Below are positions 14,120 to 38,337 of a stretch of 64,000 nucleotides of DNA, in pieces. A program made the position numbers and the translations under genes. This stretch comes from Muricoccus pecuniae (GTDB lineage Bacteria > Pseudomonadota > Alphaproteobacteria > Acetobacterales > Acetobacteraceae), in the NCBI RefSeq assembly GCF_014199205.1, contig NZ_JACIJD010000001.1, forward strand, positions 186,001 through 250,000. Reading direction: 5' to 3'. The stretch's first letter is position 1, and the number at the start of each line of letters is the position of its first letter. The notes beneath the pieces were generated by a model, which saw nothing but the letters and a program-made list of their open reading frames with translations, was not told the origin of the DNA and did no database searches.

Positions 14120-14213
14120 TCTAGGCGAGATGGCCGCGGGCAGGAACCGGGGGTTGCGCGCTGGCCTTGCAATACCCGCCACCGCATGCTCCGCCATGCG
14201 CGACGGGGATCGG

Positions 14214-20058: not shown

Positions 20059-20886
20059 TCAGAAGATCTCGAGCTTGCGGCGCGCGGTGCGCAGCGCGAG
20101 CATGCCGAGGAGGTTCACGACCAGGATCCACTGGCCGACATAGAAGAGGTCGTAATAGGACGGGAACGCGTCGCCGAAGATCCCGTGCCGGATCGCCTCG
20201 TGGATGCTCACGAGCGGGTTCCACAGCAGCAGCTCGCGGATCCCCGGCGACATCCAGTGCAGCGCGAAGAAGGCGCCGGAGAGCGGCATCATCAGGTAGG
20301 TGATGGGATGGATCAGCCGCTCCGCGCTGTCCCAGCGGGAGCTGGCCGCGGCCACCAGCAGCGACGCGCCGTGGCAGAGCAGGAACAGGAGCGCGAGGGT
20401 GCCCGCGATCAGCCCGGGATTCGCCGGCAGGATCTCCGCGAACCAGGCGGCGACGGTCAGGATGATGGCGATCACCCCGACGACGGCCACCGCCTCCAGC
20501 AGGTTGCGCGCGATCATGACATCGGCCGGCGTGACCTGCCGGTGGAAGAGCAGGGTGAGGTTCGCGTGAATCGCGCTGCCGGCCCGGTTCACGATGGAAC
20601 GGAACATGAAGAAGGGCACGTAGCCCACGATGCTGAAGATGAAGGGGTCCGCCCCGCCCGGCAGGCGCTGGCCGTGCGCGAGGTGCATCACCCCGACCAT
20701 GGAGCCGAGGAAGAGGGGCTCGAAGAACAGCCAGAGGAAGCCGAGGTTGTGCCGGCCGAACCGCGTCTGCATCTCGCGCATGACGAGGGCGCCGATCACG
20801 CGGCCCTGCGTCGCCATGCCCTCGATGATCCAATGACCCTTCTCCCGCCGCTCTGGCGGGATCGGCACCGTGCCGGTCGCGCTCAC
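20059..20886 (-). CDS. kpsM: Capsule polysaccharide ABC exporter, permease
   Basis: A 275-residue ABC-2 type permease with six predicted membrane segments, forming the channel for capsule polysaccharide with KpsT. The cytoplasmic N-terminus contains ALVMREMQTRFGRHNLGFLW, the conserved amphipathic entry of KpsM proteins, and FFALHWMSPGIRELLLWNPLV lies before the last helices. The GTG at 20886 was chosen because it overlaps the upstream lipoprotein stop as GTGA. The longer frame beyond it lies inside that gene. Confidence 0.95.
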   Translation of the reverse strand: MSATGTVPIPPERREKGHWIIEGMATQGRVIGALVMREMQTRFGRHNLGFLWLFFEPLFLGSMVGVMHLAHGQRLPGGADPFIFSIVGYVPFFMFRSIVNRAGSAIHANLTLLFHRQVTPADVMIARNLLEAVAVVGVIAIILTVAAWFAEILPANPGLIAGTLALLFLLCHGASLLVAAASSRWDSAERLIHPITYLMMPLSGAFFALHWMSPGIRELLLWNPLVSIHEAIRHGIFGDAFPSYYDLFYVGQWILVVNLLGMLALRTARRKLEIF

Positions 20887-21377
20887 GGGCGATAGACCGC
20901 CCCGCCGCGCAGCAAGGCCCGTGCCGCGACCCATCCCTGCGAGGGGTCGTTGCAATAGGTCGCGCCCGGCGCGCCGCCGGCGATGCCGGAAGGCCCGAAC
21001 TGCAGCTCGCGGCACTCCCGCCCGGAGGCGGCGTTGTAGGCGCGCACCATGCGGGCGGAGACGACGCCCTGCGGCAGCTGCACGCTCTCCGCCTGGCCCT
21101 GCCGGGCACGCGCGGCGAAGGCAGCGAGGGGATCGGCGGCGCGGGCGGGCAGCACGACATCCGTTGCGGGCGGCGGCGACTGGGGGGCGGGGCCGATGCC
21201 GGCCGGGTTCCACCAGCTGCTCTCCGCCGTGCTCCGCGCGCAGCCGGCGAGCATCGGGCCGGCGAGCGCGAGGAGGAGCGCGAGGGGGCGGATCGCTGCC
21301 GCGACGCGGACCGTCGTCGGGCGTGTCGGGCACTTCCGCCGGGCACTGGCCGGGCCGGTAAGCATGGCTTCCATCAT
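20883..21377 (-). CDS. Uncharacterised lipoprotein translationally coupled to kpsM
   Basis: A 164-residue lipoprotein. A hydrophobic segment (LALLLALAGPML) ends in lipobox LAGC with Cys46. The 45-residue leader is long, so a later start is possible, but no in-frame one is obviously better. The mature part is Pro/Ala-rich, then has VVSARMVRAYNAASGRECREL and ATYCNDPSQGWVAA. The pair Cys122/Cys142 could form a disulfide. The RECREL pattern resembles small lipoproteins that often neighbour capsule exporters (a DVU3141-like family, from memory). It heads the export operon and shares a GTGA overlap with kpsM, suggesting a role in capsule assembly or surface attachment; no function is known. Confidence 0.75.
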   Translation of the reverse strand: MMEAMLTGPASARRKCPTRPTTVRVAAAIRPLALLLALAGPMLAGCARSTAESSWWNPAGIGPAPQSPPPATDVVLPARAADPLAAFAARARQGQAESVQLPQGVVSARMVRAYNAASGRECRELQFGPSGIAGGAPGATYCNDPSQGWVAARALLRGGAVYRP

Positions 21378-21421: not shown

Positions 21422-23206
21422 ATGACCCCGACGCACGCGCAGGGCGACCTGTTGCATTCTTGCTGCCATCCCCGGTTGCTGTCGCGCTGGCCGCACCTTC
21501 CCGCCTTCTGGCCCGAGCGCGGGGGCGATGCCCCGACCCTTCCTCACTTCTCTCTCGCTCCCTTCGCGCCGCCCCGCTTCGGAGGCCGCGACGCCCCGCC
21601 CCTGGTCCTGACGGAGACGGAATCCCCCCTCCTGCCGGGCGAGGCGGAGGCGCTCCCCGCGCTGATCGCGCGCGCGCGGCTTGGCGGGCCGCCGGGCCTG
21701 CCCGATCCCGGCGCGGCGGCGCTCGGCTGGCCCCTCGGCGCGGCGCTGGTGCTGGACCCCTGCGATCCCGCGCGGCGCGGCAGGGCGGAGGGGGCGCTGG
21801 CCGCCGCGCGCGCCACCGGCCGGCCGGTGGTCCTCGCGCGCGATCCCTTCGCCGATCCCGCCGCCGCCCCCGTGCTCGACGATGCCGGCCTTCCAACCGC
21901 CGGGGCGCCGCTCTCCCCCTGGACGCTGCTCGACGCCGCGGCCTCGCTGCACGGGGCACGCCCCTTCATGGCCGCGCTGGCCGAGGCGGCGGGCGTCGCG
22001 CATGACAGGCCGGGGGGGCATCTCCTCCCGCTGCTCCGGCGCATTCGCGCGGCCGATCCCTTCCGCTCCCGGCCCTGGAGCCGCGCGGAGGGTTTCGCGC
22101 TGCTCGCGGATTGGGTTGCGGCGGAGCGCGCCAACCGCGGCGTCTCCGCCCTCATCGGCATCGCGCGCTGGAAGCGGCGGCAGGTTGCCGCGCTGCTCGC
22201 GCATGAGGGCGGCGTGCCGGCTTTCGAGCGCAGCGCCCTCCGCGCGGCGGCGCGGGCGCGGGCCGAGGGCGGGGCGGTGGTTGCCTGGGCCGCTTCCTGC
22301 CCGGAGGGATTGGCCGAGAAGCTGCGCGCGCAGGGTGTTCCGCTAAGGCTGCTGGAAGATGGCTTCGTGCGCTCGCGCGGGCTCGGCGCGCGCTTCCTCC
22401 CCGGCGCCTCCTACAGCCTCGACACGCGCGGCGCCTATTACGATCCCCGCCAGCCCTCGGACCTGGAGATGCTGCTGACGGAGGGCGGCTTCGGGCCGGA
22501 ACTCCTCGCGCGCGCGGCGGCGCTGCGGTCGGAGATCGTCCGGCGTGGCGTCTCGAAATACAATCTCGCCGGGGGCGGCGCGCTGCCGGAGATCCCGCGC
22601 GGGCGGCGCGTCGTGCTCGTGCCCGGGCAGGTGGAGGACGACGCCTCCGTCCGCCTGGGCGGCGGGGCGATCCGCTCCAATCTCGGGCTGCTGCGCGCCG
22701 TCAGGGAGGCGGAGCCCGATGCCTTCATCCTCTACAAGCCGCATCCCGACCTGGAGGCGGGCTTCCGCCGGGGCCGGCTGCGCGCCGAAGACGTTGCCGG
22801 CCTCGCGGACGCGGTGGTGGGCGGCGTGCCGCTGCCAGCGCTGCTGCCGCGGATCGACGCGCTGCACACCCTCACCTCCCTCTCGGGATTCGAGGCGCTG
22901 CTGCGCGGCGTGGCCGTGACCTGCTGGGGTCAGCCCTTCTATGCCGGATGGGGGCTGACGGCGGACCGCGCGCCCCTCCCGCCCGGGCGGCGCGACGTCC
23001 CGCGCAGGGTGGACGAGCTGGTCGCCGCCGCCCTCATCCTCTACCCCCGCTACATCGATCCCGTGACGCTGCTGCCCTGCCCGCCGGAGGTGATGATGGA
23101 GCGGCTGGAGGACTCCTCCGCCTGGCGGGTCTCGCCGCTCACCATCCATCGCGGAATAGAGGGCTTCCTGCGCGGCGCCCTCGCGCGGGTCGGCCGGCGC
23201 CGGTAG
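21422..23206 (+). CDS. kpsC: Capsule polysaccharide biosynthesis protein KpsC (Kdo transferase), single complete GT module
   Basis: A 594-residue KpsC homologue. In group 2 capsules KpsC extends the poly-Kdo linker on the lipid acceptor and has two glycosyltransferase modules. Here the C-terminal module is clear: GIARWKRRQVAALL (about residue 250), LEDGFVRSRGLGARFLPG with Glu at 312, YYDPRQPSDLEMLL, VPGQVEDDASVRLGG, YKPHPDLEAG, and FEALLRGVAVTCWGQPFYAGWGLT. The N-terminal 230 residues lack an EDGFxRS copy and look like a shrunken or decayed first module. Start ATG 21422. It converges with kpsS (12 bp between stops). Confidence 0.9.
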   Translation: MTPTHAQGDLLHSCCHPRLLSRWPHLPAFWPERGGDAPTLPHFSLAPFAPPRFGGRDAPPLVLTETESPLLPGEAEALPALIARARLGGPPGLPDPGAAALGWPLGAALVLDPCDPARRGRAEGALAAARATGRPVVLARDPFADPAAAPVLDDAGLPTAGAPLSPWTLLDAAASLHGARPFMAALAEAAGVAHDRPGGHLLPLLRRIRAADPFRSRPWSRAEGFALLADWVAAERANRGVSALIGIARWKRRQVAALLAHEGGVPAFERSALRAAARARAEGGAVVAWAASCPEGLAEKLRAQGVPLRLLEDGFVRSRGLGARFLPGASYSLDTRGAYYDPRQPSDLEMLLTEGGFGPELLARAAALRSEIVRRGVSKYNLAGGGALPEIPRGRRVVLVPGQVEDDASVRLGGGAIRSNLGLLRAVREAEPDAFILYKPHPDLEAGFRRGRLRAEDVAGLADAVVGGVPLPALLPRIDALHTLTSLSGFEALLRGVAVTCWGQPFYAGWGLTADRAPLPPGRRDVPRRVDELVAAALILYPRYIDPVTLLPCPPEVMMERLEDSSAWRVSPLTIHRGIEGFLRGALARVGRRR

Positions 23207-23218
23207 CGCCCGCCCGCC

Positions 23219-24469
23219 TCAGCCGCGGCCCGGCAACACCGGCCGGTTCACGAGGCGGTTGTGCAGGCGGTGGACGGCCGCCTCCACCGCCGCGTCCAGC
23301 CCGGGCTGCGCGTAGTAGACGCCACGGATCTGCAGGCACCAGGCGATGCCGCGCAGGAAGGCCTCGCGCAGCTCGGGATCGGGCGGGCGGCCCTCGGTCC
23401 AGAAGCGGTCGAGCGGGCCGTCATGGGTCAGGCCGGGGATCTTGTAGAGGGCCTCGCCCAGCGCGTGGGTGGGCAGCCGGTCCACGATGGCGCGCAGCCC
23501 GACCGTGCTGTTGATGGTGATGACGCCCTGCACGCTTTCGGTGATGTCGCCGAGGTTGCCGCCGCCGAGATAGTGGACGCGCTCCGCCACCCCGGCGCGC
23601 CCGGCGATCCGCGTCACGCGGCGGCGCCAGTTCTTCATCGCGGGGTCCAGCGGATGGACCTTGAACAGGAGTTGCGCGTCGGCCGGCGCATGGGCGGCGA
23701 AGGAGCGCGTCACCTCCTCAATCGCCGTGTCGAGGTCGGAATAGGCGGAATAGGCGCGGACGGAGAAGTCCGTCTCCATCTGCATCGCCATGAGGAAAAG
23801 CGGGCCGCGCCCCTTCAGCCGCGCGATGATGCCGTCCGCCCGGCGATTGGCCCGGCGCCGCGTGAGGATGCGCGAGAGCGTGCCGAGATAGACCTGGAGG
23901 GGATGGTAGATCTGGTGGCTCTCGTAGTGGCGGAAGAAGCCGGGAATGAGCGAGACGAAGTGGTAGGCCACGTCCCAGGCGGCCTGGTTGAGGAAGCTGT
24001 CGCGGTAGCGCGTCGCCAGGTCGGGCGGCGGCAGATCCTCGGCCAGGGCGAGGATGGCGGCGGGGTCGCGCGGGAAGAGGCTGTCGCGGCCGAGCCCGTT
24101 GAACTCGAAGGTGATCCAGTCCGGGCGGATGTAGCCGAAATCCGTCGCCACCACCGCGATGCCGCGCGCCCTGGCGGCCGCGATGGCCTCCCGGTGGTAG
24201 AGGCGCTGCTCGCCGAGCAGGACGATGTCGGTGATCCCGTGGCGGTCGAGGAAGGCTGCGATGTAAGCGGGCCAGTCGCCCGGGCGGCCGGTGAAGTCCA
24301 CCGCCCCCGGCCCGCGCCAGCTCAGCTTGTCGCCGAGGCAGAGGTTGATGCGGTGCACGCCGTGGCCGAGCTCGCGCAGCCGCGCGCCCATCCGAGTGAA
24401 GAAAGGGGTGATAGGGCCCTGCAGGAACAGGAATTCCCGTCGCGCGGTGCTCTCGGTTTCCTGTCGCAC
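23219..24469 (-). CDS. kpsS: Capsule polysaccharide biosynthesis protein KpsS (Kdo transferase)
   Basis: A 416-residue KpsS homologue, the enzyme that places the first Kdo on the lysophospholipid-type acceptor in known group 2 systems. Matching segments are FLFLQGPITPFFTRMGARLRE at the N-terminus, DFTGRPGDW, VATDFGYIRPDWITFEFNGL, LFLMAMQMETDFSVRAYS, KVHPLDPAMKNW and TINSTVGLRAI. It lies 98 bp downstream of the formyltransferase gene on the same strand, so it is probably the last gene of the PKS operon. That placement links lipid synthesis to the first sugar transfer. Confidence 0.93.
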   Translation of the reverse strand: MRQETESTARREFLFLQGPITPFFTRMGARLRELGHGVHRINLCLGDKLSWRGPGAVDFTGRPGDWPAYIAAFLDRHGITDIVLLGEQRLYHREAIAAARARGIAVVATDFGYIRPDWITFEFNGLGRDSLFPRDPAAILALAEDLPPPDLATRYRDSFLNQAAWDVAYHFVSLIPGFFRHYESHQIYHPLQVYLGTLSRILTRRRANRRADGIIARLKGRGPLFLMAMQMETDFSVRAYSAYSDLDTAIEEVTRSFAAHAPADAQLLFKVHPLDPAMKNWRRRVTRIAGRAGVAERVHYLGGGNLGDITESVQGVITINSTVGLRAIVDRLPTHALGEALYKIPGLTHDGPLDRFWTEGRPPDPELREAFLRGIAWCLQIRGVYYAQPGLDAAVEAAVHRLHNRLVNRPVLPGRG

Positions 24470-24567: not shown

Positions 24568-25395
24568 TCAGAGCCGCGCGCGCAGCGCCGCCCGGAGATC
24601 GCCGAGGCCGACGAGGCGCAGCCCACGGCGCCGCGCCTCGTGCAGCGCGGCCCGGGAGGGAAAGGGGCAGTAGGGCAGCACCTCGACGACGCGCCCCTCC
24701 TCGACGGCGCCCGTGCCGAGGCGTGCCAGCACCTCGCGCGCCAGCGGCACGGCCGCACGGTGCAGCAGCCGCGCGGCGGCGGAGGCGGTGGTGCCCGGCG
24801 GGAGGGGAATGGCGCGCTGCGCGAGGATCGCCCCCGCATCGATCCGCGGCGCGAGGCGGTGGACCGTGACCCCATGCGACGGCACGCTCTCCATCCCCGC
24901 CCAGAAGGTCGGCACGGGGCCGCGATGGCGCGGCAGGAGGGAGGGGTGGATGTTGATCCCGCCCATCGGCGCGAGGGCGAGGGTCTCGGCCGAGAGGATC
25001 GCGTCGAAGTGGAAGGTGACGATGAGGTCCGGCCGCGCCGCGCGCAGGGCCGCGTGGAAGCCGGGCCCGTTCACGTCATCCACCTCCAGCACCGGCACCC
25101 CCCGCGCGCCGAGCGCCCGGGCGAGCGGCCCCGGCCCCCGGCGCAGCGCGGCGGCGAGGCGCGGCAGGGCCATGTTCACCGCGAGATAGAGGAGGAAGCG
25201 CGGCCCGGAGCGGCGCAGGTGGCGCCAGGCCTGGCCGACCGCGCCGCCCGCCGCGCGGCGGTAGGGGTTCGAGAGGCCGAGGAGGACGATCCTCTCCCGC
25301 TCGGCCGCGGCGAACTCCGCCACCGCCTCCGCGCTCGCGGCGCCGGGCAGGGTGAGCAGGGCGATGCGCGGCGGCCGGGGCGCCCCTTCCGTCAG
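24568..25395 (-). CDS. Formyltransferase-family protein in capsule-lipid operon, probable CTG start
   Basis: A 275-residue Formyl_trans_N protein. The catalytic Asn, His and Asp of 10-formyl-THF-dependent transferases are present: INIHPSLLPRHRGPVPTFW (Asn148, His150) and RIDAGAILAQ (Asp186). The conserved first strand RIALLTLPG lies upstream of the first GTG (25323). The only in-frame start that includes it is CTG at 25395, which overlaps the oxoamine synthase stop as CTGA. GGAGGG at 25402-25407 is six bases upstream. A formyl transfer to an amine is the family reaction. In this operon the amine made by the oxoamine synthase is a plausible acceptor; a nucleotide-sugar amine is the alternative. 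Confidence 0.82.
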   Translation of the reverse strand: MTEGAPRPPRIALLTLPGAASAEAVAEFAAAERERIVLLGLSNPYRRAAGGAVGQAWRHLRRSGPRFLLYLAVNMALPRLAAALRRGPGPLARALGARGVPVLEVDDVNGPGFHAALRAARPDLIVTFHFDAILSAETLALAPMGGINIHPSLLPRHRGPVPTFWAGMESVPSHGVTVHRLAPRIDAGAILAQRAIPLPPGTTASAAARLLHRAAVPLAREVLARLGTGAVEEGRVVEVLPYCPFPSRAALHEARRRGLRLVGLGDLRAALRARL

Positions 25396-26711
25396 CCCGC
25401 GCCCTCCGCCGGCCCGGTGCCCGCCGCCGCCTCGGCCACGATGCCGAGGGCGCGGTCGATCTGCTCCTCCGTGTGGTCGGCGGAGAGGAAGAAGCGCAGC
25501 CGCGCCGCGCGCTCGGGCACGGCGGGGAAGGTGATGGGCTGCACGTTCAAGCCGCGCCGGAACAGCTCGGCCGAGAGGCGGCCGGCCCGCACGGAGGAAC
25601 CCGTCATCAGCGGCACGATGGCGTGGCCGGCCGAGGCGCCGGCATCCAGCCCGCGCGCGCGCAGCCCGTCGCGGAAGCGGGTGGCGTTCGCGTTCAGCCT
25701 TGCCACCCGCCAGGGCTCCTCCCCGAGGATGCGCAGGGATTCGAGGGCGGAGGCCGCCAGCACGGGGGCGAGGCCGACGGAGTAGACGAAGCCGGGCGCG
25801 GTGTGGCGCAGCCAGTCGATGAGCTGCCGCCGCGCCGCGACATAGCCGCCGCAGGAGGAGAGCGTCTTCGACAGCGTGCCCATCCAGATATCGACGCCCG
25901 AGGGATCGACGCCCTGGAGTTCCGCGATGCCGTGGCCGGTGGGGCCGAGCACGCCCATGGAATGCGCCTCGTCCACCATGAGCCAGCCGTCGTGGCGGCG
26001 CGCGATCTCAATGAAGCGCGCGAGGTCGGGCACGTCGCCATCCATCGAGTAGTGGCCCTCGATGAGAATGAGGGCGCGGCCGGCGGCGCGGCGCGCGGCG
26101 GCCAGCTCGCGCTCGGCGGCCTGATGGTCGTTATGCGCGAAGGGAATGCGCCGCGCCCCGGAGAGTCGCGCGCCCTCGATGCAGGAATTATGGATCGTCG
26201 CGTCGTGCAGGATCACGTCGCGCGGGCCCATGAGATGGCCGATGACCGTCACATTCGTCGCATGGCCGGAGACGAGGGTGAGCGCGGCCTCCGCGCCGTA
26301 ATGCGCGGCCAGCGCCGCTTCCAGCTCCGCATGCAGCGGCCGCTCGCCCGAGACGATGCGGGACGCGGAGGCCGAGACGCCGTAGCGGTCGATCGCCGCA
26401 TGGGCCGCGGCCTTCACGCGCGGATCGGCGTTGAGGCCGAGATAGTTGTAGGAGGAGAAGTTCAGGTACTCCGCCCCCTCGATCACCGTGGTGGCCGAGG
26501 CCGCGCCCGCATGGGGGCGGAAGAACGGGTTGGGAAGGTCGAGCGCCTCCATCGCCGTCTTCATCAGCTCGAAGTCGCGCAGCGCCGGCAGCTCGGCGAA
26601 GGAGCTGCCGCCCCCCTCGGCGCCGCTCTCCTCCTGCCGCGCGCGGCGCTTGGTGAGGCGCTGGAGAAGGGCGAGGCGGGCGGTGGCGGTGAGGCCCTGG
26701 CCCTGGGTCAA
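25392..26711 (-). CDS. Alpha-oxoamine synthase (RkpG/KBL/AONS-like), probable TTG start
   Basis: A 439-residue PLP enzyme of the alpha-oxoamine synthase group, which condenses an acyl thioester with an amino acid, losing CO2 to give a 2-amino ketone. Landmarks are NFSSYNYLGL, the SASASRIVSG and SGHATNVT loops, DEAHSMGVLGPTGHG and the PLP lysine Lys282 in MGTLSKTLSSCGGY. The TTG at 26711 overlaps the PKS stop (TTGA) and has GGAG at 26720-26723, eight bases upstream. The first 50 residues are an extension relative to AONS. It resembles RkpG of rhizobial K-antigen loci. As its substrate is probably the PKS ACP-bound acyl chain, it would act as the offloading enzyme. Confidence 0.9.
   Translation of the reverse strand: MTQGQGLTATARLALLQRLTKRRARQEESGAEGGGSSFAELPALRDFELMKTAMEALDLPNPFFRPHAGAASATTVIEGAEYLNFSSYNYLGLNADPRVKAAAHAAIDRYGVSASASRIVSGERPLHAELEAALAAHYGAEAALTLVSGHATNVTVIGHLMGPRDVILHDATIHNSCIEGARLSGARRIPFAHNDHQAAERELAAARRAAGRALILIEGHYSMDGDVPDLARFIEIARRHDGWLMVDEAHSMGVLGPTGHGIAELQGVDPSGVDIWMGTLSKTLSSCGGYVAARRQLIDWLRHTAPGFVYSVGLAPVLAASALESLRILGEEPWRVARLNANATRFRDGLRARGLDAGASAGHAIVPLMTGSSVRAGRLSAELFRRGLNVQPITFPAVPERAARLRFFLSADHTEEQIDRALGIVAEAAAGTGPAEGAG
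25402..25407 (-). promoter_or_regulatory. Ribosome binding site supporting the CTG start at 25395
   Basis: GGAGGG on the minus strand, six bases before the CTG codon. No ATG, GTG or TTG in the same frame lies between here and GTG 25323. The site decides the start of the formyltransferase. Confidence 0.5.
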
Positions 26712-29700
26712 GCGGGGTTCTCCATCGAAGCGGTGGCCGAACCCGCGCCGGGGGGCAGCGTGGCCGCGTCCGCCGGGGTCGGCTCCGGCGTAGGTGGTGT
26801 CGCCGCCCCCGGTTCGAAACTGTCGAGCAGCGCGTCGATCCCGGCCTCGCGCCCGCCTCCCGAGAGTCCCTCGGCGACGCGCGCGGCGAGGCCGGCGACG
26901 GTGAGGTCCTCGGTGACGGCGGAGAGGGGCACGGTCATGCCCAGCCGCGCCTCCAGCGCCCCGCGCAGCTCCAGCCCGCCGAGGCTGTCGAGGCCCAGCC
27001 GCGCGACCGGCGCGTCGGGCGCGATGCTCTCGGGCGGCAGGCGCAGGATGCGGCCCAGCTCCTCCGCGCCGATGCGGGTGAGCAGCGCCCGCGCCTCGGC
27101 CGCCGGCAGGGCGGCGAGATGGGCGCGCATGTCGGCGATATCGGCATCCGCCTCCTCCGCCCGGCCGCGCAGGGCGGCGAAGGCGGGCTCGCGCAGCACG
27201 GGGAGGGCGGCGCCCACGCGCTTCCAGGCGACGCGGGCGAGGGAGATCGCGGGCACGCCCGAGGCGATGAGCGCGGGCAGGGCCTCCAGGGATTCGCGGG
27301 CCGCCATCGGCTCCACGCCGAGGCGGCGGCCGAGGGTGCGCGCCGTCTCGGCGTCGCGCGCCAGGATGCCGGCATCCCCGATCGGGCCCCAGCCGATGGC
27401 GAGCGCCGGGCGCCCGGCGGCGCGGCGCCGGCGGGCCAGGGCCTCCAGCCCCGCATTCGCCGCGACGTAGTTCGCCTGGCCCGGATTGCCGAGCGCGGTC
27501 GTTGCCGAGGAGAAGAGGAGGAAGAGGTCGAGCGGGTCGCCCGCCGTCAGCCGGTCCAGGTTCTCCGCCGCCGAGAGCTTGGGCGCGAGCACGCGGGCGA
27601 AGCGGGCGGCGTTCATCGCCGTGGCCGCGCCGTCGTCGAACACGGCGGCGGCGTGGACGACGCCGGTGACCGGCCCCTCCTCCCGCAGCTCCGCCAGCAC
27701 GGCGGCGAGCGCCGCCTCGTTCGAGGCATCGACGGCGTGCAGGCTGGCCCGCGCGCCGAGGGCGGCCAGCGCCGTCACCGCCTCCGCCGCGCCCGGGGTG
27801 GCGGGGCCGCGGCGGGAGAGCAGGGCGAGGCGCGACGCCCCGCCCGCGGCCAGCCACTTCGCGCATTCCAGCCCGAAGCCGGAGGCGCCGCCCGTGACGA
27901 GGATCGTCCCGCCCCCGCGCGGCGACCAGTCCGGCACGGGCTGCGCGTCGCCCCGGGGCGGGGTGAGGACGATCTTGCCGATATGCCCGCTCGCCTGGAG
28001 CAGCCGGAAGGCGCCCTCCGCATCCTCGGCCGCGCGCCGGGCATAGGGCAGGGGGCGGAGGTCGCCGATGGCGAGCCGCCCGCGGATGGCCTCCAGCAGC
28101 CGCGCGGCCTCGGCCGGGCGCGCGCGGGGAAGCTGGTCCACATCCACGCCGAAATAGGTGATGTTGCGGCGGAAGGGGCGCACCGCCACGCGGCGGTCCT
28201 CGGCATAGTCGCGCTTGCCCAGCTCGACGAAGCGGCCGAAGGGCCGGAGCAGGGCGAGGGAGCGCTCCATCGCCTCCCCGGCCAGGGAGTTGAGCACGAC
28301 GTCCACCCCCTCCGGCCAGTGCCGGCGCAGCGCGTCGTCGAAGCCCGCCGCGCGGCTGTCGAGCACGAGGTCGGCGCCGGCCGCGCGCAGGAAGGCGCGC
28401 TTGGCCGGGGTGCCCGCGGTCATCGCCACCTGCGCGCCCGCGGCCCCCGCCACCTGCAGCGCGGCGAGGCCGACCGCCCCGGCGCCACCATGGATCAGCA
28501 CCCGCTCCCCCGGAAGGAGGCGCGCGCAGCTCTCCAGCGCGTAGACGGCGGTGAGGAAGGCGACGGGGATGGTGGCGGCGGCGGCGGGGCTCAGCCCCTC
28601 CGGGACGGGAACCACGGCCTCGGCGCGGGTGAGCACGCGGCTGGCCAGCGCGCGGGGCGCGAAGCCGAAGACGCGCGTGCCCGGATGCAGCAGGACGCCG
28701 GGCCCCGCCGCCTCCACCACCCCCGCGCATTCCATGCCGAGGCCGGCGCCGGCGAAGCCGTCCTTCAGCGTCTCCTCCGGCAGCAGGCCCTGAGCCCACA
28801 TGAGGTCGCGGAAGTTGAGGCCGGCCGCCTCCACCCGGATCCGCACCTCCCCCGGGCCGGGGGCGGGCAGGGGCTCCATCGGCTCCCAGCCGAGGGAGGA
28901 GAGGGCGCCCGGCTGGCGCACGGCCAGGCGCGCGGGCAGGGCCGGGCCGGGCGGCTGGCCCGTGACGATCCGCGGCACGCGCCGGGCGGAGAGGCCGAGG
29001 ACGAGCTCCGGCTCGGCCCCTGGCGCGGCTTCGGCCGCCGTCTCCGCTCCGGAAGTCAGCAATTCCGGCAGCAGGCGCCGCGCCGCGGCGGCGGGGGCGA
29101 GGGCCGCGTCCACGGTGATCCGGCGCGGCGCGAGGTCCGGCATCTCGTTGGCGAGCACGCGGCCGAGGGCGCGCACCGCCTCGGCCGCGGGGCAGGCCGG
29201 GTCGCCCTGGGCGACGAGGGCGAGGCTGCGGGCCGCGCCGGAAGCGGCCCCGGCAAGGCTGGACAGGCCCGCCAGGGTTGTCGGGAGCGCGAGGGGGGCC
29301 GGGTTGGCGAGGGCCACCACGGCGGCATCCCGCAGCAGGCGCGGGGGAAGGGAGGCCGCGTCCTCCAGCCGGTGGATCTCCACCGCCGCCCCGGAGGCCG
29401 ACAGCGCGGCGGCCAGGGCCTCGCCCAGCGGCGCCGCGCCGGAATCGGCGAGGAGGACGTGCCGGCGCGGCGGCGCTGCCGTCGGGGTGGCGGGGACGGG
29501 GGTGGGGCGCTGCGCGGCGAGGATCGCGGCGGGCCAGGGGGAGGCCTGCAGCGCCTCCACCCGCGCGGCGGCCCAGCCCTCGGCGGCCAGCGCGCCGCGC
29601 CAGGCGTCCAGGCCGGGCAGGGGCGGGGCGGAACGGCTCCCGGCCTCCTGGCCCCGCGCGAAGTCGATCACGCGCCCGGGCAGGGGCTCGGCCAGGAGCA

Positions 29701-32700
29701 GGAGCCCGCCCTCGGCCAGCGCGGCGGCGAGGCCGGGGAGGAGGCCGGTGCCCGCCCCGCCGCGCATGGCCGGGGCGACGCCGACCACGAGATCCGCCGT
29801 GAGGGGGGGCGGCGCGCCGCCCGCGGGGTCCCAGTCGAGAGGGACCACCTCCAGCGTCGGCTGCGGGGCCGGGGCGGGGCGCGTGGGGCCAGCCAGCACC
29901 TGCTGCACGCGGCGGCCCGCGCGGGCGAGGGCGGTGGCGAGGTGGCGGGTGAGCGCCGCGCCGCCGAGGTCGAGCACGCGAAGCGGGCGCTCGGCCGGCC
30001 AGGCGGCGGCGACCGCGCCGGCGGCGTCGGCCAGGACCTGGGCCAGCCGGTCGGCGGCGGCGGACTCCTCCGGGAGGCCGGGCGCGGCGTCCTCCGGCGG
30101 GAGATGGCCGGCCAGGGCATCGGGCAGGCGCTCGGCCGCCAGGGCGAGGGCGGCGAGGTCCCCCGCCAGGGCCGGGCGCTCGATCAGGACAGAGCGCCAG
30201 ATCTCCCCGGGCGCGGGCAGGTCGTCGGCGGGCAGCAGCCGCCAGCCGGCGCCCTCCCGCTCGGCCAGCCCGTCCTCCTCCAGCGCGCGGAGTAGGGCGG
30301 CGGCATAGGGGGTGGCGGGCAGGACGGGCCGGGGGGACGCGCCATCCCGGCCATCGTCTCCGGAGAAGGCGGCCATCGCCGCAGCGGCGACATAGCCTTC
30401 CAGCAGGAGGGCGGTCTCGGAGAGGTCCAGCGACTCGTCCCGCGCGCCGGCCGCGGCCATGGCGAGGTCGAGGAGGCGACCCCCCTCGGGCGGGGGCAGG
30501 GCGGGGTCGGCCGCGGGCACGTCCTCCAGCCGGAAGACCGCCGCCTCCGCGGCCTCGGCCCGGCCGAGGCGGGCGCGCTGGAACCACACGCCCTCGGCCA
30601 CCGCCACCGGGCGACCGGCGGCGTCGCCGAGGACCATGCGGGCCTCGGCCGCGCGCTCCCCGGCATGGGTGAGGGCGAGGGCGGCGCGGGTGGCCGGGGC
30701 GGCGTCCCGCCGCACGACGAGGCGCTCGAAGCGCACGGGAACCAGGGCCTCGCCGGCGGGGGAGGCGCGGCGGTCGGCGAGCAGGCCGATCAGCCCCTGC
30801 ATGGCGCCGTCCAGCCGGACGGGGTGCAGCAGGAAGGGCGCGTCCTCCGGCGCCCCGGCGGGAAGGCCGAGCGCCACCTCGGCCGCGCGGCCGGACGGGG
30901 CGAGATCCACGTGGAGCACGGGGCGGAAGGCGGGGCCGTAGTCGAGGCCGCAGCGGGCCGCGGCGGCGTGCAGGGCGGTCTCCTCCACCCGGCGGCCAGC
31001 GGGGGGCGGGGGCGGCAGGGCGGGGAGGGCCTCGGCGGTGGCGGGGCGCAGCAGCCCGCGCGCGTGGAGCGACCAGGCCTCGCCCGTCATCCGGCGGCGG
31101 GATTCGAGGCGGAACACGCCGTCGTCGCCCAGACGGAAGCGCACCTCCTGGCTCCCGGCCCCGGGCTCGGCGCCGGGGATGGGCAGGGGGCGGAGGATCT
31201 GGAGCGTCGAAACCTCAAGCGCCTCGGCCTCGGGGAAGCGGCGGAGGCCGGCGGCGAGGGCCATCTCGACCATGGCGGCGGCGGGCAGCACCGCCTCCTC
31301 CCCCAGCCGGTGGTCGCCGAGCCAGGGCAGCAGGGCCGCGTCCAGGTCACGTGTCCAGGTGGCGAAGCCGGCCTCGGCCGCATCCGCCTCTCGCCGGAAG
31401 CCCAGGAGGGGGTGGTCCAGCACGGGGTCGTGCAGGCGGTGGGTCTCGGGCGTGGCCGGGAACCAGTGGCGCCGGCGGGCATAGGGCGTGCGGGGCAGGC
31501 CGCGGCGGAGGGCCGGGCCGGCGAAGGCGGGGCCGGTGCGGGGATCGGCGCCCAGCGCCGTCGCGCGGTCCGCGATGGCGGGGACCGGGTCGCCCGGCGG
31601 GTCCCGGCGCGAGAGGCTGGCGAGGATCGGCGCCTCGCTCCCGCCAGGACGCAGGGCCTCACGCAGGGCCTCCCGGAGATAGGATTGCAGGATCGGGTTG
31701 GGGCCGATCTCGATGACGGGACGCGCGCCGAGCCGCCCGGCCTCGGCGGCGGCCTCGGCGAAGCGGACGGGCGCGCGGAGGTTGCGCCACCAGTACTCCG
31801 CATCCGCCGGGGCATCGAGGAGCGTGCCGGTGACGGCGGAGAGGAAGGGGATGCGCGGCGCCGCCGGCCGCAGCCCGGCCAGGGACTCCCGCAGCAGCCC
31901 CTCCACCTCGTCCATCGCGGCGGAGTGGAAGGCGTAGTCGAGGTCGAGCGGGACGAAGGACAGGCGCCCCTGCCGGGCCGCGACGGCGAGGCGGGCGATC
32001 GCCTCGGCCGGGCCGGCGACGGTGAGGGCGCGGGGCGCGTTGCGGGCGGCGATCTCGAGCCCCGGCCCGCAGGCGGCGAGCAGCGGCGCCGCCTCGGCCT
32101 CGGTGGCGTTGAGGGCGGCCATGCGCCCCTTGCCGCGCGTGCGCGCCTGGGCCGCCGAGCGGGCGACGATCAGCCGCGCCGCCCCGGGAAGATCCAGGAT
32201 GCCCGCCGCCAGCGCCGCGGCGACCTCGCCGACGGAATGGCCGAGGACGAGGGCGGGGGCGATGCCCTCCCCGGCCAGGGCGGCGACGAGCCCGTGCTGC
32301 ACGGCGAAGAGCGCGGGCTGGGCCACCTCCGTCGCGGCCAGGGCCTCGGCGGTCAGGCCATCGGCCAGGGCGGCGGCGACGGACCAGCCGAGATGCGGCG
32401 CCATCTCGGCATCCGCGGCCTCGACCGCCTCGCGGAAGGCGCGGGAGCCGGCCATGGCGTCCCGCGCCATGCCCGGAAACTGGGAGCCGTTGCCGGAGAA
32501 GGCGAAGACGGGGCCGGGGGCGGGAAGGGCGGGGGCGGTGCCCTGCACCCCCCGGGGCTCGCCCGCCGCGAAGCCCTCCAGCGCCTCCGCCAGCCCCTCG
32601 GCATCCCCGGCGCGCAGCACGAGGCGATGCGGGGCGAGGTCGCGGTGGCGGGCGAGGCCGCGCAGCAGGGCCGGGGCGCGCCCGGGTGCCGCGCGGAGCG

Positions 32701-34105
32701 CCTCGGCCCAGGCGGCGGCGGCGCGGGGAAGCGCCTCGGCGGAGCGGGCGGAGAGGAGCAGGGGCGGCAGGGCCGCGGCCTCCGTCTCGGGCGCGGCATC
32801 CACGGGCGGAGGCGCGGCGAGGAGGAGGGAGGCGTTGGTGCCGCCGAAGCCGAAGGAGTTCACCCCGATCACCGGCTCATCGCCCGGCAGGGGCTCCGGC
32901 GCGGTGGGCACGCGGATTCCGAGGCCGGCGAAGTCGATCCGCGGGTTCGGGGTGCCGAGATGCAGGTTCGGCGGGATCACCCGCCTCTCCAGCATCAGCA
33001 GCGCCTTGAGCAGCCCGGCCATGCCGGAGGCGGTCTCCAGATGGCCGATATTCGACTTCACCGAACCCACGGGCAGAGGCGAGCCACGGTCTCCGGCGCC
33101 GGGCATGGCCAGCGCCTCGCCGATCGCCTGCGCCTCCACGGGGTCGCCGGCCTGGGTGCCGGTGCCATGGGCCTCGAAGTAACCCACCCGCCCGGCGGGC
33201 AGGCCGGCCTCGGCCAGCACCTTGCGCAGCAGCGCAGCCTGGGCTTGCGGATCGGGCAGGGAGAGGCCGATGGAGCGGCCGACCGCGTTCACCCCGGCAG
33301 CCAGGATCACGCCGCGCACGGGGTCCCCCGCCGCCAGCGCGGCGGAGAGGGGCTTGAGGACGACCATCCCCGCGCCCTCGCCGCGCACATAGCCGTCGGC
33401 CGCCGCGGAGAAGACATGGCAGCGCCCGCTGGGCGAGAGCATCGAGGCCCGGGAGAAGCCGGTGAAGGCGTAGGGCGAGAGGAGCAGCTGCACCCCGCCC
33501 ACCAGCGCCGCCTCCACCCGCCCCGCGCGGAGCGAGTCCACGGCGAGAGAGAGGGCGACGAGGGAGGAGGAGCAGGCGGTGTCGATCGTCTGCGCCCCGC
33601 CGCGGAGGTCGAGAACGTTGGTGATCCGGTTCCCCAGAATGGAGAGGGTGTTGCCGGTCATGAAGTAGCGGTCGGCGCCCGAGGGATCGGAGAGGCGCAG
33701 CTCGGCGTAGTCGGTCGAGGAGCCGCCGACAAAGACGCCGATCTCGCGCCCCGCCACGGAGGAGGCGGGCCAGCCCGCATCCTCCAGCGCTTCCCAGGCA
33801 ACCTCGAGAAGGAGGCGCTGCTGCGGGTCGGCCTCCGCGGCCTCGCGCGGGGAGAGGCCGAAATGCGCGGGGTCGAAGCCCGCGATGTCGCCGAGATGGC
33901 CGGCGGCGAAGCTGTAGGAGCGCCCGGCCTCCTCCCTGCGGGGATGGTGGAACCAGTCCTGGTTGAAGCGGTCCGCCGGCAGGGTGGAGACGGCGTCCCG
34001 CCCCTCGGCCAGGAGGGACCAGAAGGCATCGAGATCCGGCGCACCGGGGAAACGGCAGGCCGCGCCGAGGATGGCGATCGGCTCGGCGGGAGGCGTGCGG
34101 GGCAT
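26708..34105 (-). CDS. Type I polyketide/fatty-acid synthase, RkpA-like, KS-AT-DH-(MT-like)-ER-KR-ACP
   Basis: A 2465-residue multidomain synthase. KS has active Cys178 (DTACSSS), then EAHGTGTQAGDP and KSNIGHLETASG. AT has Ser624 (GHSVGEV). DH has His932 (DHRLGEEAVLP) and the HPVRLDGAMQ motif. About residues 1250-1500 resemble a C-methyltransferase fold but its SAM loop reads LRVLDLGGAAL. ER has LIHGGAGAVGLAA near 1873, KR has TGGASGFG near 2072 and Tyr2213 (GQANYVAAN), and the ACP Ser is 2374 (LGLDSLGG). All reducing domains look active, so an iterative module would make a saturated chain. There is no thioesterase; release is assigned to the overlapping oxoamine synthase. ATG 34105 precedes PRTPPAEPIAILGAACRFPG. 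Confidence 0.95.
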   Translation of the reverse strand: MPRTPPAEPIAILGAACRFPGAPDLDAFWSLLAEGRDAVSTLPADRFNQDWFHHPRREEAGRSYSFAAGHLGDIAGFDPAHFGLSPREAAEADPQQRLLLEVAWEALEDAGWPASSVAGREIGVFVGGSSTDYAELRLSDPSGADRYFMTGNTLSILGNRITNVLDLRGGAQTIDTACSSSLVALSLAVDSLRAGRVEAALVGGVQLLLSPYAFTGFSRASMLSPSGRCHVFSAAADGYVRGEGAGMVVLKPLSAALAAGDPVRGVILAAGVNAVGRSIGLSLPDPQAQAALLRKVLAEAGLPAGRVGYFEAHGTGTQAGDPVEAQAIGEALAMPGAGDRGSPLPVGSVKSNIGHLETASGMAGLLKALLMLERRVIPPNLHLGTPNPRIDFAGLGIRVPTAPEPLPGDEPVIGVNSFGFGGTNASLLLAAPPPVDAAPETEAAALPPLLLSARSAEALPRAAAAWAEALRAAPGRAPALLRGLARHRDLAPHRLVLRAGDAEGLAEALEGFAAGEPRGVQGTAPALPAPGPVFAFSGNGSQFPGMARDAMAGSRAFREAVEAADAEMAPHLGWSVAAALADGLTAEALAATEVAQPALFAVQHGLVAALAGEGIAPALVLGHSVGEVAAALAAGILDLPGAARLIVARSAAQARTRGKGRMAALNATEAEAAPLLAACGPGLEIAARNAPRALTVAGPAEAIARLAVAARQGRLSFVPLDLDYAFHSAAMDEVEGLLRESLAGLRPAAPRIPFLSAVTGTLLDAPADAEYWWRNLRAPVRFAEAAAEAGRLGARPVIEIGPNPILQSYLREALREALRPGGSEAPILASLSRRDPPGDPVPAIADRATALGADPRTGPAFAGPALRRGLPRTPYARRRHWFPATPETHRLHDPVLDHPLLGFRREADAAEAGFATWTRDLDAALLPWLGDHRLGEEAVLPAAAMVEMALAAGLRRFPEAEALEVSTLQILRPLPIPGAEPGAGSQEVRFRLGDDGVFRLESRRRMTGEAWSLHARGLLRPATAEALPALPPPPPAGRRVEETALHAAAARCGLDYGPAFRPVLHVDLAPSGRAAEVALGLPAGAPEDAPFLLHPVRLDGAMQGLIGLLADRRASPAGEALVPVRFERLVVRRDAAPATRAALALTHAGERAAEARMVLGDAAGRPVAVAEGVWFQRARLGRAEAAEAAVFRLEDVPAADPALPPPEGGRLLDLAMAAAGARDESLDLSETALLLEGYVAAAAMAAFSGDDGRDGASPRPVLPATPYAAALLRALEEDGLAEREGAGWRLLPADDLPAPGEIWRSVLIERPALAGDLAALALAAERLPDALAGHLPPEDAAPGLPEESAAADRLAQVLADAAGAVAAAWPAERPLRVLDLGGAALTRHLATALARAGRRVQQVLAGPTRPAPAPQPTLEVVPLDWDPAGGAPPPLTADLVVGVAPAMRGGAGTGLLPGLAAALAEGGLLLLAEPLPGRVIDFARGQEAGSRSAPPLPGLDAWRGALAAEGWAAARVEALQASPWPAAILAAQRPTPVPATPTAAPPRRHVLLADSGAAPLGEALAAALSASGAAVEIHRLEDAASLPPRLLRDAAVVALANPAPLALPTTLAGLSSLAGAASGAARSLALVAQGDPACPAAEAVRALGRVLANEMPDLAPRRITVDAALAPAAAARRLLPELLTSGAETAAEAAPGAEPELVLGLSARRVPRIVTGQPPGPALPARLAVRQPGALSSLGWEPMEPLPAPGPGEVRIRVEAAGLNFRDLMWAQGLLPEETLKDGFAGAGLGMECAGVVEAAGPGVLLHPGTRVFGFAPRALASRVLTRAEAVVPVPEGLSPAAAATIPVAFLTAVYALESCARLLPGERVLIHGGAGAVGLAALQVAGAAGAQVAMTAGTPAKRAFLRAAGADLVLDSRAAGFDDALRRHWPEGVDVVLNSLAGEAMERSLALLRPFGRFVELGKRDYAEDRRVAVRPFRRNITYFGVDVDQLPRARPAEAARLLEAIRGRLAIGDLRPLPYARRAAEDAEGAFRLLQASGHIGKIVLTPPRGDAQPVPDWSPRGGGTILVTGGASGFGLECAKWLAAGGASRLALLSRRGPATPGAAEAVTALAALGARASLHAVDASNEAALAAVLAELREEGPVTGVVHAAAVFDDGAATAMNAARFARVLAPKLSAAENLDRLTAGDPLDLFLLFSSATTALGNPGQANYVAANAGLEALARRRRAAGRPALAIGWGPIGDAGILARDAETARTLGRRLGVEPMAARESLEALPALIASGVPAISLARVAWKRVGAALPVLREPAFAALRGRAEEADADIADMRAHLAALPAAEARALLTRIGAEELGRILRLPPESIAPDAPVARLGLDSLGGLELRGALEARLGMTVPLSAVTEDLTVAGLAARVAEGLSGGGREAGIDALLDSFEPGAATPPTPEPTPADAATLPPGAGSATASMENPA

Positions 34106-34181
34106 GGTGCTGCGGAGATCGGTTCCGGTCGGGCGCGCTGCGGCGGGCCGCCTCACCGGCGTGCCTCGGGCGGGCGTGGGA

Positions 34182-35522
34182 TCAAGGGGTGGCGCGGTCC
34201 ACCTGGGCGGCGCGGGCGCCGAGCCAGCCCGGCACGGAGGAACGGGCCGGGCGGAAACCGCGCTGCGGCAGGGAGGCTAGCATCTCGTCCACCGCCGCGA
34301 AATGCGCTTCCCACCGCGGCGGCCGCCAGCTGGCCAGGCGCTCGATCTGGGCCGTGCGGGAGCCGCTGGTGGGCTCGGCATAGTCGAGGATGGCGTTGCG
34401 CCAGGCCGGGCCGTCCAGCGGGTCGAGATAGTCGGGCACGGTGCCGCCGACCTCCCGCAAGGCGGGAAGGTCCGAGCAGATGGCGGGAACGCCGAGCGCG
34501 AGCGCCTCGGCCAGCGGCAGGCCGTAGCCCTCCGCGAAGGAGGGGAAGAGAAGGGCGCGGGCGCCGCGCAGGATCTCCCAGACCTCCCGGTCCGGCACCT
34601 GCCCCACCTCGCGCACCGTGCCGCGGAGGACGTCGCAGCGCTCGAGGATGTCGACGATGTTCTCGTTCTCCCATCCCCGGCGGCCGACGATGAGGAGGTG
34701 CGGCGTGCGTCCCCCCATCCGGGCGGCCAGGTCGCGCCAGAGATGGAGGAGCAGGAGGTGGTTCTTGCGCGGCTCGATCGTGCCGAGAACCACGAAGTAG
34801 GGCTCCGCCGGCAGGGCCGGGGCCGGGGCGGGCGGCGGCTCGATGCCGAGCGGGGCCACGATGACGGGCGGCGGGGTCGTGCGCACGCGCAGATGGGGCC
34901 GCAGCGCCGCAGCGGTATGGGCGGAGTTGACGATGACGGCGTCCGCCAGGGTGGCGGTGGTGCCGATGCGCCGGAGGTGCCGGTCGGCCTGCCCGGGGCG
35001 GGCGTATTCCGGATGCGTCGCGGGGATGAGGTCGTGGATGAGGGGAATGAAGGCGCAGCCGGCCTCGCGCATCGCTTGTATCGGGCGGGGGCGCTCCAAC
35101 GCGCGGTGGGACACGAGCAGGAAGGCCTTTGGCCCCGTCTCCTGCAACCGTCGCGCGAGTTGCCGGTGGCCGAGCCCGGCCATCACCCGCCAGCGCAGGG
35201 CGATGGAGATGCGCCGTGCGCGCCGCGCGGCCTTGCTGCCCGGATCGCCCTGGCCCCAGGCCTTGGACAGTTGGGCGACAAAGCCCACCACGGCCCGCCA
35301 GGGCAGCGCGACATAGTCCCCGGTCAGTCGCTGGGCGACGAAAGTGCAGCGATCCTCGGGCATTGTTGCCCATCGGCGGGCATAGGCCATCTCGACCCGG
35401 TCGATGCCGGAAGGGGCAGCCTTGCTGCCGCAGACGAGCAGGCGGGAGATGTCGAGGATGACATGGGGCGCCGGGGCTGGGAGCGCCTTGCGGAGCGTCG
35501 GATACCCCTCGCCTCGTGGCAC
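34182..35522 (-). CDS. Glycosyltransferase family 4, first gene of the PKS/kpsS operon
   Basis: A 446-residue GT-B glycosyltransferase. It opens with VILDISRLLVCGSKAAPSGIDRVEMAYA. FIPLIHDLIPATHPEY lies in the acceptor half. The nucleotide-sugar site is VLGTIEPRKNHLLLLHLWRDL and FPSFAEGYGLPLAEALALGVP. The start was set to GTG 35522 because GGAGG (35528-35532) is five bases upstream and the conserved part begins soon after. Longer readings from 35693 enter an A/T-rich non-coding stretch. It precedes the PKS by 76 bp on the same strand, so it likely glycosylates the same lipid-linked product. Confidence 0.87.
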   Translation of the reverse strand: MPRGEGYPTLRKALPAPAPHVILDISRLLVCGSKAAPSGIDRVEMAYARRWATMPEDRCTFVAQRLTGDYVALPWRAVVGFVAQLSKAWGQGDPGSKAARRARRISIALRWRVMAGLGHRQLARRLQETGPKAFLLVSHRALERPRPIQAMREAGCAFIPLIHDLIPATHPEYARPGQADRHLRRIGTTATLADAVIVNSAHTAAALRPHLRVRTTPPPVIVAPLGIEPPPAPAPALPAEPYFVVLGTIEPRKNHLLLLHLWRDLAARMGGRTPHLLIVGRRGWENENIVDILERCDVLRGTVREVGQVPDREVWEILRGARALLFPSFAEGYGLPLAEALALGVPAICSDLPALREVGGTVPDYLDPLDGPAWRNAILDYAEPTSGSRTAQIERLASWRPPRWEAHFAAVDEMLASLPQRGFRPARSSVPGWLGARAAQVDRATP

Positions 35523-35527
35523 TGTCG

Positions 35528-35532
35528 CCTCC
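35528..35532 (-). promoter_or_regulatory. Ribosome binding site fixing the GTG start at 35522
   Basis: GGAGG on the minus strand, five bases before GTG 35520-35522. Upstream in-frame ATGs at 35618 and 35693 have no comparable site and fall in non-coding-looking A/T-rich sequence. Confidence 0.65.
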
Positions 35533-35616
35533 GTGAACACAACTTTAACGGGTTTACTGCAATTGCTAACGAACGCGCCAGCCTCATTCCCGGATTCGAG
35601 AGAACTTCCGTATGTC

Positions 35617-35729
35617 ATCTCAAAAATGGACAAGAGTCCTGAATTAATTGCCAGAACGAACTCTTGGGCTGGCTCGCGGCAGGGTGGTATCACTCATTCG
35701 TGATAACGTGCACGTCTCTTGTTTGAGAT
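35617..35729. repeat. Interrupted 14-bp inverted repeat with a third copy of the CAAGAG core
   Basis: ATCTCAAA (35617-35624) and CAAGAG (35631-35636), separated by six bases, together form the reverse complement of CTCTTGTTTGAGAT at 35716-35729. A third CTCTTG occurs at 35661-35666, inside a second inverted pair with CAAGAGT at 35631-35637. It could be repeated regulator sites or element ends. Confidence 0.5.
35688..35705. repeat. Short hairpin TATCAC-6-GTGATA
   Basis: Perfect 6-bp inverted repeat with loop TCATTC inside the A/T-rich island. Its position, about 170 bp from both divergent starts, suits an operator, but the size allows chance. Confidence 0.35.
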
Positions 35730-38163: not shown

Positions 38164-38337
38164 GACCCGCCCTCCGGAGATGCCGGTTGGCAACGCGGGA
38201 GGCGGGGGCGGGTTCATGCTCCTCGCCTTCCCAGCGGCATCCCCGCTCCGGTGGCCGGTGTGCCCGGCTCGTTCCCGTCCTCGCGGGACCGTTGGTGCCG
38301 GAAGCGACCGCGCGCGTTCCGCAGGGCGTTAGCCGTT

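Follow-up and report, generated by a model that had tools for sequence, protein, structure and literature searches.

In E. coli the capsule is anchored by lyso-phosphatidylglycerol, and the biochemistry of the glycosyltransferases KpsS and KpsC is known from that system. Paired genes for a polyketide synthase (PKS) and an alpha-oxoamine synthase (AONS), rkpA/rkpG in rhizobia and wcbR/wcbT in Burkholderia, have reportedly been recognised in the capsule loci of both symbionts and pathogens since the 1990s. The window analysed here, 64,000 nucleotides of a Muricoccus pecuniae contig (NZ_JACIJD010000001.1, positions 186,001 to 250,000; 73% GC, within a 4.9-Mb genome), carries in a capsule locus a minus-strand operon in which a PKS gene is followed by genes for an AONS, a formyltransferase (FMT) and a KpsS-like protein. 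PKS, AONS and KpsS together are of a known kind; the occupant of the slot behind the AONS is new. On balance, sequence comparison suggests that the operon encodes a sphingoid-lipid pathway dedicated to the capsule. Genomes and fetched stretches are cited below by G and L numbers.

Excerpts of two papers describe wcbR/rkpA as PKS genes within capsule clusters (PMC3908369, PMC4245539). In the available text of PMC3557214, rkpA and rkpGHIJ are described as genes that make, modify and move a lipophilic molecule, perhaps a carrier or anchor, and the idea of a lipid carrier or anchor for these genes is already in print there. A phosphatidylglycerol anchor is stated for group 2 and 3 capsules in an excerpt of PMC13410964. 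No paper identifying the product of rkpA/rkpG (wcbR/wcbT) was found in the open-licence PMC literature, and among the matches listed there, in which coverage of N-formyl and sphinganine is weak, none joins a capsule PKS-AONS pair to sphingoid lipids. A term search of a 2025 review of capsule attachment found neither 'rhizobi' nor 'fatty acid synth'.

The S. meliloti record has the gene order of rkp-1: PKS, AONS, a short-chain dehydrogenase/reductase (SDR), a PF00884-like membrane protein and a KpsS homologue. The rkp names used here for its genes are presumed from that order. As in the window, its PKS and AONS genes overlap by 4 bp and a KpsS-like gene comes after them; the AONS is 52% and KpsS 46% identical, and the PKS domains are between 27% (dehydratase) and 52% (enoylreductase) identical. 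The initial annotation had mentioned RkpA/RkpG homologues in rhizobial K-antigen loci, in agreement with this record. Unlike in the window, the SDR and the membrane protein lie between AONS and KpsS, and no FMT or GNAT match is found there. Burkholderia and Paraburkholderia (L198, L205, L226, L231) have the same pair, which we take to be wcbR/wcbT, but an LpxC-family gene, probably wcbS, separates its two members (Pfam on L198 and L205). This predicted deacetylase (L198:8887-9804 and L205:8890-9804; PF03331, 226 and 225 bits) is another amide-acting enzyme in the operon, and an ORF resembling it lies between PKS and AONS in the Paraburkholderia stretch L226.

Two further systems share part of this logic. 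The rhodobacterial sphingolipid pathway (aasR, acpR, spt, cerR, cerS; Caulobacter, E. coli BL21) has an AONS-family condensation and a ceramide synthase (CerS) whose homologue occupies the slot in relatives of the window, whereas the window operon has a PKS for acyl supply, an AONS below the cut-offs for serine palmitoyltransferase (SPT) and a predicted formyl cap. Fum8-type oxoamine synthases, pyridoxal phosphate (PLP) enzymes of a fungal pathway with no capsule link, off-load a reduced polyketide chain; the window AONS resembles them, by description only, in chain release by a PLP enzyme.

The FMT is rare, and it occurs together with the AONS. It was found in 2 of 372 genomes of the class (E <= 1e-25) and in 33 of 200 of the order (E <= 1e-20). 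All 33 also have the AONS (E <= 1e-85), which is present in 62 of the 200 (Fisher p 7e-21, uncorrected for kinship; every genome drawn is counted singly in the order, class and phylum counts). FMT lies directly behind AONS on the same strand in 33 of the 36 fetched loci that have both, or in 30 of 33 after subtraction of three contigs present twice; L123/L169, L125/L168, L126/L174 and L148/L171 were taken as the same contigs entered twice, their lengths being equal. KpsS is the next same-strand gene in 16 of 27 fetched FMT loci with AONS, being on the opposite strand in seven and outside the stretch in four. PF05159, the KpsS/KpsC family, is present in 31 of the 33 FMT-positive genomes, and in the other two (G513, G576) the contig with the FMT is only 4.4 and 4.3 kb long. 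The initial annotation had raised the possibility that these genes lie mostly away from capsule loci; for the FMT this is not so.

Many FMT-negative AONS genomes fill the same slot with a protein of 350-380 residues. Ten of these were compared with the Pfam GNAT model: two scored above the cut-off, three below, and five gave nothing or an unrelated weak match. The member from L034 shares 36% identity with E. coli BL21 YghO across 376 residues, and the ten-member alignment matches YghO with an hhalign probability of 100% (E 1e-59, 367 columns, 32% identity). By these comparisons, made via YghO, the slot GNAT is a full-length homologue of CerS; yghO and the Caulobacter gene CC_1154 are given as N-acyltransferase (CerS) genes of bacterial ceramide synthesis in excerpts of PMC9386255 and PMC11324152. 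A phmmer hit to a heavy-metal exporter (E 5e-5) was taken as chance, the YghO homology being far stronger.

The slot-type GNAT (above 470 bits; next score 378) occurs in 13 of the 200 genomes of the order. All 13 are positive for AONS and PF05159 and negative for FMT, with the GNAT gene within about 150 bp of the AONS gene, and KpsS is the next same-strand gene in 12 of these 13 loci. FMT and slot-type GNAT are together in none of the 200 genomes. The GNAT is directly behind the AONS in all 17 GNAT loci with AONS (one contig entered twice), and no locus has both. A truncated GNAT (299 bits) beside PF05159 in the fragmented genome G578, where no AONS was found, is not counted as slot-type. Within the window's own genus, the five genomes drawn divide into three with FMT and two with slot GNAT. 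The AONS tree shows seven FMT/GNAT exchanges, and its starred branches force at least six changes of the GNAT label; it was made by a quick method from 83 of 145 rows, most unlabelled rows having been dropped, and the FMT genome G723 is missing because its copy L278 was kept without a label. The best explanation for repeated exchange of two unrelated amine-acylating families in one slot is a single shared substrate, the amine that the AONS is predicted to produce. Two other kinds of slot occupant were seen in the class, a PhyH-type dioxygenase in one genome (L038:10748-11656) and a GST-like protein in two (L042:10730-11353, L044:10725-11345).

The FMT has a PF00551 domain with an Asn-His-Asp set; N148, H150 and D186 are invariant in 19 of 19 aligned homologues, and 36 residues separate the histidine from the aspartate. 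We take these residues to be the catalytic triad and the spacing to be typical of N10-formyl-tetrahydrofolate formyltransferases. ArnA and Fmt share the PF00551 domain and these residues; the window protein differs in falling below their equivalog cut-offs and, at 275 residues, is presumably too short for their C-terminal domains. Its scores are below the curated cut-offs for ArnA, Fmt and sugar N-formyltransferases, NF005414 (93 of 316 bits), NF005998 (86 of 777), TIGR00460 (77 of 201.5) and NF005755 (26 of 238).

When 398 genomes drawn from the phylum were searched with the FMT alignment, six scored above 330 bits, namely that of the window and five of one other genus. The remaining 19 matches reach 134 bits at most, in frames of 668-1013 residues, ArnA-like by length. 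In all five genomes of the second lineage the FMT gene abuts an SDR gene of the RkpH type, KpsC is near and an AONS is in the genome; KpsS is seen in four (L035, L274, L275, L276) and not in L277. Methylobacterium bullatum has the same group, with SDR and FMT 98% and 90% identical to those of G283, so the lineage is Methylobacterium-like; M. crusticola has a similar group. The pairing with the SDR suggests that the FMT travels with lipid-modifying genes even when it is not behind the AONS. Rhodovarius lipocyclicus (G485; L168, the same as L125) has AONS, FMT and KpsS contiguous with no PKS match in the 20-kb stretch, which makes the AONS, not the PKS, the partner to which the FMT is tied. Upstream of this AONS there is an ExoD-family gene and, 1 kb away on the opposite strand to AONS-FMT-KpsS, a formate-tetrahydrofolate ligase (L168:7356-9029; PF01268, 878 bits) that would supply the formyl donor.

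The PKS, of about 2,465 residues, has the domain order ketosynthase, acyltransferase, dehydratase, enoylreductase, ketoreductase, acyl carrier protein (ACP), and there is no thioesterase among the 14 Pfam families listed. In the class survey (385 genomes, AONS searched by tblastn), all 13 upper AONS loci (356 bits or more), from 12 genomes besides that of the window, have the AONS directly behind a PKS, one of them cut by a contig end, so the pairing is not chance. The next three loci (L047-L049, 297-330 bits) have no PKS. In L047 (G334) the AONS adjoins an RkpH-like SDR and a CerS-like GNAT, an arrangement that may be related to the cassette or have preceded it. In the scan of named genomes, which confirmed at least 584 stretches, the best 80 come from alpha-, beta- and gammaproteobacteria and a few others. 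A PKS ketoreductase match accompanies the AONS in 76 of these 80 (in L172 on the other strand); it is absent from L168, L173 (contig end), L217 and L243. PKS and AONS form one ORF on a Planktothrix agardhii plasmid, with glycosyltransferase genes adjoining (L283:2554-10152), and a Streptomyces anthocyanicus plasmid has a shorter ketosynthase-acyltransferase-AONS ORF (L284:7338-12161).

The closest solved relatives of the AONS are KBL, SPT and BioF. K282 of its GTLSK motif, presumably the PLP lysine, and many other residues are invariant among 21 aligned sequences. The best named relatives, among the best 80, are in Pararoseomonas indoligenes (88%) and Roseomonas sp. KE2513 (86%); identity to BL21 Spt is 37%. 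The protein falls below the SPT equivalog cut-offs (NF047600, 292 of 640 bits; NF047599, 287 of 500; NF047603, 225 of 670) and below those for BioF and KBL (TIGR00858, 351 of 426; NF005394, 316 of 460), and plain BioF, KBL or SPT was rejected as its identity.

From the observed gene content, order, overlaps, co-occurrence, slot exchange and homology we infer the following chemistry and, with it, the anchor role. Judging by its domains, the iterative PKS would assemble a saturated acyl chain attached to its own ACP; since the PKS lacks a thioesterase, it would hand this chain to the AONS encoded by the overlapping gene. By the chemistry of its family, the AONS would condense the chain decarboxylatively with serine, glycine or alanine, giving a long-chain alpha-amino ketone. 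The FMT would then cap the amine with a formyl group from N10-formyl-tetrahydrofolate, a step that the CerS-type N-acyltransferase would perform in close relatives. Because the slot is otherwise held by a CerS/YghO homologue and all 33 FMT genomes have the AONS, amine capping is the simplest function for the FMT and the CerS homologue to have in common. The ketone may be reduced by an RkpH-type SDR, which many relatives have in the locus. KpsS, and perhaps also the GT4 glycosyltransferase encoded upstream of the PKS, would begin the capsule linker on this lipid, in place of lyso-phosphatidylglycerol, and from the linkage of these genes the lipid is likely to be the capsule anchor. The weakest links are the amino acid used, the reduction of the ketone and the use of the lipid by KpsS as an acceptor. 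Release of the PKS chain by the oxoamine synthase, perhaps with N-formylation, had been proposed from the window alone, and the constant company of FMT and AONS and the exchange with a CerS-type gene strengthen it at the level of sequence.

The closest solved relatives of the FMT are a point against this pathway: they are led by the sugar formyltransferase ArnA, and further sugar formyltransferases and Fmt come next. Together with three strong matches to the sugar aminotransferase family PF01041 elsewhere in the genome, they would fit an enzyme whose formyl acceptor is a nucleotide-activated amino sugar of the capsule repeat, the lipid coming from PKS and AONS only. This is unlikely, given that the FMT gene overlaps the AONS gene and swaps with a CerS homologue in its slot, that FMT without AONS is found in none of the 200 genomes, that FMT pairs with an RkpH-type SDR in the second lineage, that PF01041 is absent from the window, and that the FMT scores far below the cut-offs for ArnA and dTDP-sugar formyltransferases. 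The combination of PKS, AONS and a tailoring enzyme also resembles natural-product logic (Fum8), as if a common secondary-metabolite operon had ended up among capsule genes. This is very improbable, since the PKS-AONS pair recurs in alpha-, beta- and gammaproteobacteria, accompanied by kps genes in S. meliloti rkp-1 and in 31 of the 53 full-length named loci. Going by titles cited in PMC7902896 and PMC3557214, rkp genes are moreover needed for capsular polysaccharide.

A nearer competitor accepts the N-capped amino ketone or sphingoid and makes it a carrier, free membrane lipid or signal in place of a covalent capsule anchor; we regard this as rather unlikely, if less so than sugar formylation. 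PF05159 is present in 55 of the 62 AONS-positive genomes of the order, and KpsS so often follows on the same strand in FMT and GNAT loci, which favours the anchor. On the other side stand the plasmid-borne PKS-AONS fusions in Planktothrix and (shorter) Streptomyces, the 7 of 62 AONS genomes without PF05159, and the named loci: of those longer than 20 kb (n=53), 25 have KpsS or KpsC and 31 have any of KpsS, C, M, E and D, and in the other 22 no kps gene was seen within about 10 kb; the HMMs used to find kps genes in distant loci were built from our own matches. The lipid need therefore not always anchor a kps capsule, and the anchor role proposed in the initial annotation, which gains from the first of these counts and loses from the last, stays a proposal. 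The lipid would serve another purpose in G448, G554 (L162, L163), G429 and G444, which have an AONS and no PF05159 in the genome. In L162 and L163 a PKS and an RkpH-like SDR are near the AONS.

Several further observations weigh against the capsule-dedicated pathway. The cap is not universal: of the 62 AONS genomes of the order, 29 lack FMT and 16 lack both FMT and slot-type GNAT. Members of the wider GNAT family occur in 139 of the 200 genomes, including that of the window. In G505, G458, G545 and G571, FMT and AONS are on different contigs; a histidinol-dehydrogenase-family gene adjoins the FMT in all four and an SDR match is directly behind it in two. In the Rhodovarius lipocyclicus stretch no PKS is within reach of the AONS-FMT-KpsS group. 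The locus of the window has no RkpH-type SDR and no room for one between KpsC and KpsS, where close relatives (G402, G577) have it; the best RkpH homologue in the genome, and the only candidate for the ketone reduction, is 41% identical and 58 kb away (G000:C1:279669). RkpH was also considered as a CerR homologue and rejected for want of similarity. An RkpI-like, LTA-synthase-like protein gave no match in the genome, in a search run without a positive control.

The genome has a separate, canonical-looking sphingolipid cluster on contig 8 (L244:296-10808), with an SPT 50% identical to BL21 Spt, two LptF/LptG permeases (PF03739) and a CerS 45% identical to YghO. Its composition is like that of the Caulobacter region in the available text of PMC11324152. 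The capsule operon thus runs alongside it as a second set and is not the sole sphingolipid pathway. More broadly, and as a tentative reading about which we are somewhat doubtful, many group 2-type capsules of alpha-, beta- and gammaproteobacteria may be built on a PKS-made sphingoid lipid apart from the membrane sphingolipids, with an exchangeable amine cap, N-formyl in Roseomonas- and Methylobacterium-like bacteria and N-acyl, through CerS paralogues, in their sisters. The exchange of FMT and CerS homologue at one slot predicts the class of the lipid, an N-capped sphingoid or amino ketone that targeted lipid mass spectrometry could search for. If the proposal is true, it would place a new anchor chemistry for ABC-exported capsules beside the phosphatidylglycerol-type and Vi-type anchors and add a natural N-formyl lipid.

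The capsule locus extends over about 12.7-35.7 kb of the window (Table 1). Gene calling used a home-made filter on ORFs and GC3, which can miss genes that are small or low in GC. The minus-strand order is GT4, PKS, AONS, FMT and KpsS, then KpsM-, KpsT-, KpsE- and KpsD-like genes; KpsC is encoded on the plus strand. Pfam places KpsC, KpsS, KpsM, KpsT and KpsD homologues together in the window, and the KpsE label comes from place only; the group 2 setting stated in the initial annotation agrees with this, as does its succession of a fully reducing PKS without thioesterase, oxoamine synthase, formyltransferase and kpsS (Pfam, ORFs). The 4-bp overlaps that it reported among the first three genes are present, TTGA for PKS/AONS and CTGA for AONS/FMT, and they require a TTG start for the AONS and a CTG start for the FMT. 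For the FMT, the relative G402 has an ATG at the aligned position; the first common start in the window's FMT is a GTG 24 codons further in. KpsS does not overlap FMT and starts 98 bp past its stop.

Table 1. Features of the capsule locus (window positions) and, in the last row, a recurrent membrane protein of other loci
Feature	Position	Strand	Basis and remarks
GT4-family glycosyltransferase, directly upstream of PKS	34182..35693	-	PF00534, 62 bits; exact start uncertain
Monomodular fully reducing type I PKS (RkpA/WcbR-like)	26708..34105	-	Pfam; ATG start, GTG at 34156 alternative
Ketosynthase domain of PKS	32690..34084	-	PF00109/PF02801/PF16197
Acyltransferase domain of PKS	31610..32509	-	PF00698
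Dehydratase domain of PKS	30572..31414	-	PF21089/PF14765
Enoylreductase domain of PKS	27965..28858	-	PF08240/PF00107/PF13602
Ketoreductase domain of PKS	27377..27910	-	PF08659
Acyl carrier protein domain of PKS	26876..27064	-	PF00550
Alpha-oxoamine synthase AONS (RkpG/WcbT-like)	25392..26711	-	PF00155, 179 bits; TTG start
Formyltransferase FMT (predicted N10-formyl-tetrahydrofolate type)	24568..25395	-	PF00551, 75 bits; CTG start
KpsS-like capsule glycosyltransferase	23219..24469	-	PF05159, 238 bits
KpsC-like capsule glycosyltransferase	21422..23206	+	PF05159, 126 bits
KpsM-like ABC-2 permease ORF	20059..21333	-	PF01061; domain about 20176-20796; true start probably downstream of listed GTG
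KpsT-like ATPase	19390..20040	-	PF00005
KpsE-like inner-membrane protein	18243..19433	-	No Pfam match; label from place and same-place homologues
KpsD-like polysaccharide export protein	16484..18259	-	PF02563 and SLBB
TPR and GT4 glycosyltransferase, probably capsule	14046..16439	+	Pfam
GT4 glycosyltransferase, probably capsule	12722..14197	-	Pfam
PF00884-type membrane protein members	L181:17818-19515; L133:10507-12126; L282:13433-14662		BLAST cluster

A GT4 homologue is upstream of the PKS in many relatives' loci too. Two SDRs (35855-36616 and 37456-38217), together with the enoyl-CoA hydratase that separates them, were set aside as a separate unit upstream of the GT4 gene, at which most fetched stretches end. 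The PF00884 (LTA-synthase-like) membrane protein recurs near the cassette, as a BLAST cluster in 38 of 146 loci with Pfam matches on two members, and in S. meliloti it occupies the place of RkpI. It could equip the lipid with a phospho head group.

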